This document shows, piece by piece, positions 34,216 through 37,018 of a stretch of 64,000 nucleotides of DNA. The DNA is taken from positions 620,001 to 684,000 of the forward strand of contig NZ_CP014862.1 of NCBI RefSeq assembly GCF_002214585.1. The letters are read 5' to 3'. Each line of letters starts with the position of its first letter. The first letter of the stretch is position 1. The notes below the pieces were generated by a model. It was not told where the DNA came from. It searched no databases and worked only from the letters and a program-made list of their open reading frames with translations. The translations under genes and the position numbers were made by a program. This DNA is from Thermococcus profundus (GTDB lineage Archaea; Methanobacteriota_B; Thermococci; Thermococcales; Thermococcaceae).

Positions 34216-34740
34216 TCACGCCGGAACACCCACCAAATTGCCCCGCCTCTTAACGCTGAGGGCCAAAAATCCTGCAAGCAGGGTTTTAACAACGTCTACG
34301 GCCACAAAGGGGAGCACTCCAACCTCAAAGGCTCTTTCGGGGCTGTCCAGGAGGAGGGTCAACCTGGCCCAGCCGAGGAGGTAGATAACACCCAGGGCGA
34401 GCAGGCCGAGTGCAACGTGACGGAGCAATCCCCTGCTCTCGTATGCGAGACCTGCAACTGCCGCGGCTATCGGGAAGGCCATCAAATAACCCCCTGTGGG
34501 GCCGTAGATTACAGCTGGGCCTCCGCTGAACTTTGCAAAAACTGGAAGGCCAACGGCACCGGCTAGAAGGTAGGTTATCTGGCTTAAAAATCCCCTCTTG
34601 GCTCCCAGGAGGAACCCGCTGAGGAGCACGAAGAGAACTTGAAGGGTTACAGGCACTTCTCCGAGGGGAACGCTTATCCATGCCCCAAGGGCAGTCAGCG
34701 CTCCGAAGACCGAGGCGTAGCTTATGTCCTCAACGTCCAC
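34216..34740 (-). CDS. bioY: Biotin transporter substrate-binding subunit BioY
   Basis: The 174-residue protein has six membrane helices, with the BioY motif YPTGGY-like stretch IYGPTGGYLMAFPIAAAVAGLAYE and the earlier VPVTLQVLFVLLSGFLLGAK. It is the S-component of an ECF transporter and uses the EcfA/EcfT pair encoded on the other side. A GTG at 34740 is preferred because GGTGA lies five bases before it; the GTG at 34749 lacks a site. It is divergent from birA across a shared operator. Confidence 0.88.
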   Translation of the reverse strand: MDVEDISYASVFGALTALGAWISVPLGEVPVTLQVLFVLLSGFLLGAKRGFLSQITYLLAGAVGLPVFAKFSGGPAVIYGPTGGYLMAFPIAAAVAGLAYESRGLLRHVALGLLALGVIYLLGWARLTLLLDSPERAFEVGVLPFVAVDVVKTLLAGFLALSVKRRGNLVGVPA

Positions 34741-34763
34741 ATCCCTCACCGACCCTTCGATTA

Positions 34764-34793
34764 CGTTAACTTTTAAAATGTTTTAGGTTAACG
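34764..34793. promoter_or_regulatory. Inverted repeat, likely BirA biotin operator, between bioY and birA
   Basis: CGTTAAC (34764-34770) and GTTAACG (34787-34793) form a perfect inverted repeat with a 16-base spacer. The spacer holds TTTTAAAA, the probable TATA box of birA about 25 bases before its ATG. This is the size and layout of bacterial and archaeal BirA sites (TTGTAAACC/GGTTTACAA type). The adjacent BirA has a DNA-binding domain, so autoregulation by biotinyl-AMP-bound BirA is likely. Confidence 0.7.
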
Positions 34794-34800
34794 AAGTTCC

Positions 34801-35541
34801 ATGAAGCCCCTAAGAGACAGCCCCCAAAAGAGGAGGATCCTAGAATTCCTACGGAAGAACGACACCGTCAGCGGGGAACTTATAGGGAGGGAGCTGGGGA
34901 TATCGAGAACCGCCGTTTGGAAGCACGTTGAGGAGCTCAAGGAGCTGGGATACGGGATAGAATCCACTTCCATTGGGTACCGGCTCGTTTACGATCCGGG
35001 AATACCTTACCCCTGGGAACTGGACGTTGAGTCGGTTTACTACAGGGTTACGAGGTCGACCATGGATGAAGCAAGAAAACTGGCGGAAAAAGGCTCTCCC
35101 TCGGGTCTCTTCGTGATAGCTGGGGAGCAGAGAAGCGGAAAGGGAAGGAGGGGTAGGGGGTGGCACTCACCTCCGGGGGGACTGTACTTTTCCCTGATCC
35201 TCAGGCCTGGTATGCCCATGGAGGACGTTAGAAGAGTTGAAGAGTCGGCGCTTCTGGCCGTTGAAGGATTCATGAACTCCCTCGGTCTGAATGCGGACGC
35301 ATCTCGGAGGGGGATTATTGTAAATGGAAGAAAGATCGGGGGGATTCTAACTGAGGCCTACGGGGAGGTCGATGAGGTCAGGTTCGTGATCCTGGGGGTG
35401 GGCATCAACGTGAACAACCCCGTGCCAGAGGGGGCAACCTCCCTGTCCCTGGAGCTAGGGAAAAGTCCCAGCCTCCTTGAAGTTGCAAGGAGTCTGTTCG
35501 GGGTTCTGCTCAAAGAGCTGTCGTGGGCGGTGGGAGGGTGA
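34801..35541 (+). CDS. birA: Bifunctional biotin-protein ligase and repressor BirA
   Basis: The 246-residue protein has an N-terminal winged helix (LRKNDTVSGELIGRELGISRTAVWKHVEELKE, residues 14-45) and a ligase domain with GRRGRGWHSPPGGLYFSL. It attaches biotin to carboxylase proteins and binds DNA as a biotinyl-AMP sensor. The ATG at 34801 lies about 25 bases from the TATA box, so the message is leaderless. The last bases overlap the ecfA start (GTGA). Confidence 0.9.
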   Translation: MKPLRDSPQKRRILEFLRKNDTVSGELIGRELGISRTAVWKHVEELKELGYGIESTSIGYRLVYDPGIPYPWELDVESVYYRVTRSTMDEARKLAEKGSPSGLFVIAGEQRSGKGRRGRGWHSPPGGLYFSLILRPGMPMEDVRRVEESALLAVEGFMNSLGLNADASRRGIIVNGRKIGGILTEAYGEVDEVRFVILGVGINVNNPVPEGATSLSLELGKSPSLLEVARSLFGVLLKELSWAVGG

Positions 35542-36332
35542 TAGAGTTCATTGACGTCAGTTATAGGTACCCGGACGGCACGGAGGCTCTGAAGAACGTC
35601 TCCCTCTCCATCGGAAAGGGGGTGACAGCCCTCCTCGGACCCAACGGGAGCGGAAAAACTACGCTTGCCCTCCACATGAACGGGATCCTGAAGCCTACGA
35701 AAGGGACTGTTCTCGTCAACGGGACAGACACGAGGAAGGCCAAGGCGGCCGAGCTTAGTAAGGTGGTTGGCTACGTCTTTCAGAATCCTGAGAGGATGTT
35801 CTTTGAGGAGACCGTGCTCAGGGAGGCCGCCTTCGGTCCTTCAAACCTCCAGTTGCCGCGGGAAGAGGTGCTGGAGAGGGCTTTCTCAGCGCTTAGGGCC
35901 CTTGGACTCGATGGTTACGAGGAGAGAAACCCGCTCTCCCTGAGCGGCGGTGAGCAGAAGAGGCTTGCAATAGCCTCGGTTCTTGCCATGGATCCTGAGT
36001 ACATTGTTGTGGACGAACCCCTGGCCGGCCTCGACTGGAATGGAAGAACCGAGGTAATCCACGCCCTCCGAGAACTCGCGAAAAGGGGGCGGGGCGTGGT
36101 CGTTATAACCCACGATGCCGAGCTCGCCCTGGAGCTGGCTGAGAGGATCGTTCTGATGGATAAGGGAAGGATGGTTTTCGAGGGGAGCGTGGGGGAGTTT
36201 CTTGCCATGGATCTTGAAAAATACGGAGTGAAAACCCCTGATTTCCTGAGGATATCGAGGGAGCTCGGACTCGGCTCGGTTAGGAGCGTTTCGGAACTCC
36301 TGGAACTTTTAAGGGGGAGGACGTTGGGATGA
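35538..36332 (+). CDS. ecfA: ECF transporter ATPase (BioM-like)
   Basis: The 264-residue ATPase has Walker A GPNGSGKTT, signature LSGGEQKRLAIA and Walker B YIVVDEPLAGLD. It starts at GTG 35538, which overlaps the birA stop. GGTGGGAGG precedes it, and the upstream in-frame GTG at 35523 is rejected. It drives an energy-coupling-factor importer, here with BioY. Confidence 0.88.
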   Translation: MIEFIDVSYRYPDGTEALKNVSLSIGKGVTALLGPNGSGKTTLALHMNGILKPTKGTVLVNGTDTRKAKAAELSKVVGYVFQNPERMFFEETVLREAAFGPSNLQLPREEVLERAFSALRALGLDGYEERNPLSLSGGEQKRLAIASVLAMDPEYIVVDEPLAGLDWNGRTEVIHALRELAKRGRGVVVITHDAELALELAERIVLMDKGRMVFEGSVGEFLAMDLEKYGVKTPDFLRISRELGLGSVRSVSELLELLRGRTLG

Positions 36333-37018
36333 GAAGTAAAGGTGGGCTTGGCCTCTCCTCAGAATTTTTTTGTGCGGTTCTTGTCTCAATTACCGCTCCT
36401 TTCATGGGGATGAGGGGCCTCCTCCTGGTTCTGGGCTTTCTGCTGATTGGAATGTGGCTGATGGAGGTTGAGTTCGGGGTTCTTCTGGACGGTTTAAAGG
36501 TAGTTCTCCCGTTTATCGCTATTGCGGTGGTGTTGAGACTCACTTTTGGGGTGGGAAGTTCCTCAACTCCTACTGGGTCCCTTGAGTATTTCCTCAGGCT
36601 TCTCCTGATGTTCCTCCCATTCTTGATCCTGGCAGAGACATCAAAGCCCAGTGAGCTCAGGGACTTGCTCCTGAACCTGGGGTTCCCCCTGTGGCTGGTG
36701 ATCTCTGTGTTTTTACTAATGAAGAACGTGGAGGCCGGTAAGAGGATCCTGAGGGAGGTGAAGATCGCCCAAACCTCCCGGGGGATGGATTTTAACCGGG
36801 GAAACTTTGTGGCGAGACTCTGGAACTCGAAAACCCTCGTGATTCCCCTGGTTGCGTGGGGGCTGGTGAGGTCTGGCGACCTTTCGAGGTCACTTGAGGC
36901 CAGGGGCTTCTCGCTTGAGAAGAAGCCGACGACCCTCACTGATGGGGGAATTGGGGGAAAAGATATTCTGACAATGGGAGTGATGCTTCTTATCCTTGCA
37001 ATAGCTCTAAAACTGTAA
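36329..37018 (+). CDS. ecfT: ECF transporter transmembrane protein EcfT (BioN-like)
   Basis: The 229-residue membrane protein has about five helices and a cytosolic region with the two Ala-Arg-Gly-type motifs (SRGMDF and SLEARGF) that contact the ATPase. It overlaps ecfA by four bases (ATGA). With birA and ecfA it forms one operon, and with BioY it forms a complete biotin importer (AT-S type with one ATPase). Confidence 0.85.
   Translation: MRSKGGLGLSSEFFCAVLVSITAPFMGMRGLLLVLGFLLIGMWLMEVEFGVLLDGLKVVLPFIAIAVVLRLTFGVGSSSTPTGSLEYFLRLLLMFLPFLILAETSKPSELRDLLLNLGFPLWLVISVFLLMKNVEAGKRILREVKIAQTSRGMDFNRGNFVARLWNSKTLVIPLVAWGLVRSGDLSRSLEARGFSLEKKPTTLTDGGIGGKDILTMGVMLLILAIALKL

Follow-up and report, generated by a model that had tools for sequence, protein, structure and literature searches.

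The bioY locus of Thermococcus profundus

The 64-kb stretch of the Thermococcus profundus genome analysed here (the window) contains a biotin uptake locus in which bioY and a gene for a BirA-like protein, named birA in the first-pass annotation and referred to here as the regulator gene, lie on opposite strands (Table 1). The regulator gene is followed without a gap by genes for an ECF ATPase and an ECF transmembrane component. The assignment of bioY and birA as the neighbours of an inverted repeat was confirmed by matches to BioY on one side and to HTH_11 and BPL_LplA_LipB on the other, and the N-terminal winged helix proposed for the adjacent BirA is present both as the HTH_11 match (residues 11-61) and in a structural model. 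At loci L019, L025, L026, L028 and L046-L051 of other genomes, the regulator/bioY pair was seen without a close downstream ecfA and ecfT of the same type.

Table 1. Positions in the window of the genes, protein domains and sequence elements at the bioY locus
Feature	Position	Strand	Basis
bioY, biotin ECF transporter substrate-binding (S) component, GTG start	34216..34749	-	PF02632, 5.6e-38
Predicted operator, BirA-box type inverted repeat CGTTAAC-N16-GTTAACG	34764..34793	.	Window search and conservation
TTTTAAAA, TATA-like, within the operator; putative promoter role	34771..34778	.	Distances to starts
Regulator gene (birA of the first-pass annotation), 246 aa, winged helix and BPL-like domain, without C-terminal cap	34801..35541	+	Pfam, model
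Winged helix-turn-helix HTH_11, residues 11-61	34831..34983	+	PF08279, 5e-14
BPL-like sensor domain (predicted), residues 82-203	35044..35409	+	Pfam BPL_LplA_LipB, PF03099, 6.9e-15
Site of the lost KWPND, now S168-R169-R170-G171	35302..35313	+	Alignment
ecfA/bioM-like ECF transporter ATPase	35538..36332	+	GTG at 35538 overlaps the regulator stop codon
ecfT/bioN-like transmembrane component, CbiQ family	36329..37018	+	PF02361, 9.7e-11

The gap of 51 bases between bioY and the regulator gene is filled by the repeat CGTTAAC-N16-GTTAACG, in which perfect 7-nt arms (34764-34770 and 34787-34793) are separated by 16 bases and the GTTAAC half-sites are 22 bp apart. The perfection of the repeat, noted in the first-pass annotation, was confirmed: it is the single match in the window and was obtained in 0 of 100 dinucleotide shuffles. 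The coordinates also bear out the earlier description of the repeat as spanning the gap and enclosing the TATA-like TTTTAAAA, an element whose own symmetry makes it usable in both directions. Measured from the centre of TTTTAAAA, the two start codons, the GTG of bioY at 34749 and the ATG of the regulator at 34801, are 25.5 and 26.5 nt away, respectively, a geometry compatible with the earlier proposal that one site serves both divergent promoters. These distances are about those between an archaeal TATA box and the transcription start, and both transcripts may therefore be almost leaderless, starting just outside the repeat. A riboswitch or other RNA was dropped as a candidate since no Rfam family was matched at the locus, and a scan for bacterial promoters and terminators gave nothing useful.

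Conservation of the repeat and its loss together with the regulator

We sampled 94 Thermococcales genomes and scored an operator as present where two GTTAAC half-sites separated by N14-17, with at most one mismatch, were found at bioY. An HTH-bearing homologue of the regulator was present in 46 of these genomes, i.e. at the 45 loci L007-L051 and at L053, where the gene is cut by a contig end; L052 (G085:C59), which has KWPND and no bioY, was excluded from the regulators as a different gene. A scan of all 47 loci detected two half-sites, 15-17 bases apart and with at most one mismatch, in 44 of them, the misses being L010, L039 and L052. At L010 and L039 the regulator lies away from bioY and the exact repeat was found at bioY itself (L181 and L182), which brings the operator count to 46 of 46 regulator genomes, 23 with an exact repeat and 23 with one mismatch. 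Over the 44 loci the gap between the half-sites was 15 in 31, 16 in 12 and 17 in one, and when each of these conserved loci was shuffled only 0-3 of 200 shuffles attained its score. The repeat is kept across all six genera sampled from the order. Absence of the repeat from other Thermococcales that keep the locus had been named as the finding that would overturn the operator reading; the repeat is instead present in every regulator genome.

The genomes that have bioY and no regulator match provide the counterpart to these results. Of the 94 genomes, 84 have bioY, and 38 of these 84 are without a regulator match. In two of them (G051, L165; G082, L176) the contig stops at the expected place of the regulator, and they were set aside. 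The operator was found with at most one mismatch in none of the 36 evaluable genomes (L143 has two mismatches), as against all 46 with a regulator (Fisher 4e-24). On the well supported branches of the bioY tree all 11 independent contrasts agree (sign test p 0.001), and the regulator is carried by none of the 10 genomes that are without bioY (Fisher 0.001). Of the two set aside, L176 has the repeat with two mismatches. In L165 (G051:C174:1-1661) the contig starts at about the start of the regulator, an apparently cut-off beginning of which is visible; as the repeat is present with one mismatch, the G051 genome probably has a regulator.

As the operator adjoins the regulator gene in 44 of the 46 genomes, some of the joint losses could be single deletions. 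Relocated regulators and decayed half-sites speak against single deletion as the sole cause. In G001:C10 (L181) and G093:C5 (L182) the regulator lies 1.6-2.6 kb from bioY, in G001 downstream of it on the same strand, and the exact repeat is still at bioY; the regulator-less loci L147, L174, L177, L178 and L180 retain a decayed half-site in place. Because it is both conserved and lost together with the regulator, the repeat is very probably the operator of the adjoining HTH protein, and is strongly supported as the predicted docking site of a biotin repressor. The earlier claim of a BirA operator thus holds for the operator and its neighbouring HTH protein; one point to amend is the protein, which does not look like an ordinary bifunctional BirA.

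The regulator protein: parts lost and parts kept

The alignment comprised 47 regulator-type proteins and 60 Thermococcales class I ligases (44 from regulator genomes and 16 from others), a subset given that about 92 genomes have a class I ligase. Residue counts for the regulators refer to 45 sequences, L052 and the cut L053 being left out, and counts for the cap to 44 complete sequences. The KWPND motif is present in all 60 ligases and in none of the 45 regulators, in which WPN, PND and KWP do not occur anywhere in the protein. The C-terminal cap is likewise kept in 60 of 60 ligases and gone in 44 of 44 regulators, which have 21-43 residues after the TSMKLELG block compared with 86-91 in every ligase. 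Passages of PMC12582158 describe the catalytic domain plus the C-terminal cap as the minimal structure for biotinylation and KWPND as essential for biotin binding. PMC2384007 is less uniform, since one of its passages has KWPND not touching the ligands and its docking table gives contacts for Asn130 and Asp131, residues that presumably belong to KWPND. Among relatives found on genome contigs, both Thermococcus matches are without WPND and all 78 others have it.

Other parts of the protein are retained. The biotin pocket (Ser-Thr, Gln42, Gly45 and Trp53 in P. horikoshii numbering) and the active-site lysine that activates biotin (Lys111/Lys183) are kept in all 45 regulators. In the same numbering Arg48 is kept in 40 of 45, Arg51 in 28 and Asp104 in two, and Trp101 is deleted in all 45. 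The retention of Lys111 and Arg48 leaves room for weak biotin activation. For three of these positions PDB entry titles list P. horikoshii mutants: biotinyl-AMP is named as the ligand of R48A and of K111 mutants, ATP together with biotin as the ligands of D104A. We also considered the STM of the regulators (45/45), set against the STN of the ligases (60/60), as a lost ligase residue, and rejected it as a sign of inactivity because bacterial BirAs with an intact WPND share STM (L190, L193, L198, L204, L218, L234, L240, L248 and L267).

The AlphaFold2 model of the regulator has a pLDDT of 96.1 and contains the catalytic-domain fold of BPL, in line with the PF03099 match. Model residues 73-246 align to residues 2-174 of the 235-residue P. 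horikoshii BPL (2deq; Z 25.4, rmsd 1.5, 165-166 residues aligned), i.e. the alignment stops before the cap. Purifying selection acts on the regulator: in 13 close pairs dN/dS ranged over 0.11-0.25 when the protein was taken whole and over 0.08-0.46 in its BPL-like part.

A separate ligase and an apparently local regulon

The T. profundus genome has a class I BPL at G000:C1:1088988-1089320 and a further BPL/LplA family member, likely a lipoate ligase, at 1994463-1994783. A class I BPL was found in 45 of the 46 regulator genomes, the exception being G035, which is 69% complete. By these distributions almost every genome has the ligase, and the regulator is an optional gene that accompanies bioY. 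The excluded L052 (G085:C59:6874-7653) encodes a second, normal-looking BirA in a genome that is 61% complete, and is perhaps contamination or a recent transfer.

Over the whole genome (2,043,143 bases) there are three exact GTTAAC-N8-24-GTTAAC sites, the operator and two others (L002 and L003) that lie inside long open frames of 500 and 967 codons. With a gap of 16 and at most one mismatch the operator is the only site, and neither the exact N14-17 search nor the one-mismatch search found a further intergenic site in T. profundus; the circuit therefore looks local, its regulon consisting of the transporter and the regulator only. Upstream of the class I BPL gene no inverted repeat with at most one mismatch was found in any of the 60 loci examined. 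The carboxylase genes put forward in the first-pass annotation as further places to look gave no support for a wider regulon: near the genes for BCCP, carboxyltransferase or ligase there was no site with up to two mismatches except in L280, where one two-mismatch match lies at the far end. Plasmid copies were not found.

The exact GTTAAC-N14-17-GTTAAC search was also run over the 94 genomes. Two genomes share the same exact GTTAAC-N15-GTTAAC, which encloses a TAAAAAAG stretch, in L135 (G070:C1:286180-286206) and at G047:C42:7867-7893. In both it is flanked by a 220-aa gene and one that is RNA-methyltransferase-like, with the gene for the class I ligase about 5 kb away; it is possibly an extra operator, or chance. 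In T. profundus itself the seven other gap-15 sites all lie in open frames of 166-1008 codons, but as the longest frame on either strand was taken, the shorter frames are weak evidence of a coding placement.

A proposed circuit and its alternatives

We consider it likely that the repeat acts as the operator for a biotin repressor that is dedicated to this role and probably dead as a ligase, and that biotinylation is carried out by the separate class I ligase. The regulator would have descended from a BirA-type biotin ligase, keeping the DNA-binding domain and the pocket and losing the parts needed for ligation, which would be the task of the separate enzyme. With biotin or a derivative of it bound, a regulator dimer would sit on both GTTAAC half-sites and cover TTTTAAAA, shutting both the bioY and the regulator-ecfA-ecfT transcripts; when biotin is scarce the regulator would release the DNA and the uptake system would be made. 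DNA binding, repression, biotin as the signal and the absence of ligase activity are what we infer for this protein. In known BirAs the corepressor is biotinoyl-5'-AMP, which the regulator may be unable to make. We lean slightly towards a repressor that has shed ligation altogether and senses either free biotin or biotinoyl-AMP supplied by the ligase, its corepressor not being of its own making.

An ordinary bifunctional BirA, which like that of E. coli would make biotinoyl-AMP, repress with it and also biotinylate, is the main competitor, and the retained Lys111, Arg48 and pocket residues fit it, as does a score above the cut-off of the NCBIfam birA_ligase model (104.9 vs 83.1 bits). What makes it unlikely is the complete loss of KWPND, Trp101 and the cap and the poor retention of Asp104 and Arg51, in a family whose other members examined keep WPND (78/78 relatives outside Thermococcus and 12/12 relatives from the same class); the P. 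horikoshii crystal mutants with ligands named in entry titles weigh on the same side. Decay could account for the same losses, the regulator then being a ligase pseudogene kept for now, and the frequent loss of the gene (the bioY tree requires 11 or more changes) would agree with this; given the dN/dS of the BPL-like part, the invariant pocket residues and a model confidence of 96, such a pseudogene is barely credible.

The two remaining readings concern the repeat rather than the protein. Since it surrounds a TATA-like box, the repeat could be part of the bioY promoter or the site of another regulator, with the adjacent HTH protein not binding it; this is very unlikely because the 36 evaluable regulator-less genomes keep bioY without the repeat and because its pattern is that of a BirA box. 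Its short arms and the palindromic nature of GTTAAC itself would suit a coincidence or a by-product of an AT-rich gap, a reading that the shuffles of the window and of the 44 conserved loci, together with conservation in six genera and in all regulator genomes, have already refuted, leaving it next to no probability.

A dedicated repressor would have consequences beyond this locus. Known BirAs combine biotin attachment and repression in a single protein, and repression therefore reflects both the demand for biotin and its supply. A repressor without ligation would, if the proposal is true, break this logic, in which biotinylation demand competes with repression inside one molecule; if the jobs are split in Thermococcales, the repressor responds to supply only, and the lineage offers a natural experiment on the purpose of the coupling. 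The order provides a clean archaeal regulator-operator pair, for which the 36 evaluable genomes without a regulator serve as controls. In the 46 of 94 Thermococcales genomes that have it, the regulator gene is probably mislabelled as a 'bifunctional biotin ligase/repressor'.

Comparison with known systems

Conserved BirA signals in archaea were reportedly proposed already by Rodionov and colleagues in 2002, and the operator is of a known kind; a Pyrococcus site may already be on their list. With a palindrome, a position at a biotin-gene promoter and co-occurrence with an HTH BirA-like protein, the repeat has the sequence features of a BirA-box operator and is a variant of that kind. The BirA box consensus of Rodionov, Mironov and Gelfand (2002), as quoted in PMC545781, is TTGTAAACC-N14/15-GGTTTACAA. 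Like it, the repeat is inverted and stands at a divergent biotin promoter beside birA. Compared from 34763 onwards, with N14, the window site departs from TTGTnAACC-N14-GGTTnACAA at 4 of the 16 positions scored (position 5 free). It differs in its outer bases and in that the regulator is not a normal BirA, and at most Thermococcales sites the spacer is one base shorter (a gap of 15 in 31 of 44).

A 95-row tree places the regulators with Desulfobacterota/Thermodesulfobacteria-like BirAs (SH-aLRT 100), but with a set of 47 rows a tree that unites them with the Thermococcales ligases was not rejected (p-AU 0.546); a bacterial transfer and an old duplication are both compatible with these trees. 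GTTAAC-type repeats occur just before or at the birA start in 4 of the 9 tree-nearest bacterial loci (L190, L204, L210 and L248), and several Desulfobacterota loci have such sites ahead of birA. A more stringent scan, run on the sequence before the chosen starts, found a GTTAAC pair with at most one mismatch in 2 of the 9 nearest loci and in 8 of 77 overall. The 12 same-class BirAs examined all keep WPND, and bioY was found beside none of them.

The regulator has the winged helix and BPL fold in common with the class II bifunctional BirAs of E. coli, B. subtilis and S. aureus, and over its full length it is matched best by the S. aureus BPL (Foldseek E 5e-19; Z 24.4, rmsd 3.4, 239 residues). 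It differs from them in having neither KWPND nor the C-terminal cap, and at 246 aa it is shorter than 76 relatives of 308-375 aa (not counting L188, L189, L201 and L262). The BPL and BirA of Pyrococcus abyssi and P. furiosus treated in PMC3199775 are probably the same gene pair as here. That account has two homologues branching far apart and counts those with a complete N-terminal domain as bifunctional; its section 10 does not mention loss of KWPND, loss of the cap or an operator, and in the literature searched we found no description of the loss of ligase parts in this regulator. Francisella novicida, with BirA and BplA (PMC11089781), and Lactococcus lactis, with BirA1 and BirA2 (PMC4861984), also have a DNA-binding protein in addition to a separate class I ligase, and in L. 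lactis BirA1 is reported to bind the bioY promoter. In L. lactis, however, both proteins are reported there to be active ligases and BirA1 has a normal length (323 residues), whereas the Thermococcales regulator looks ligase-dead.
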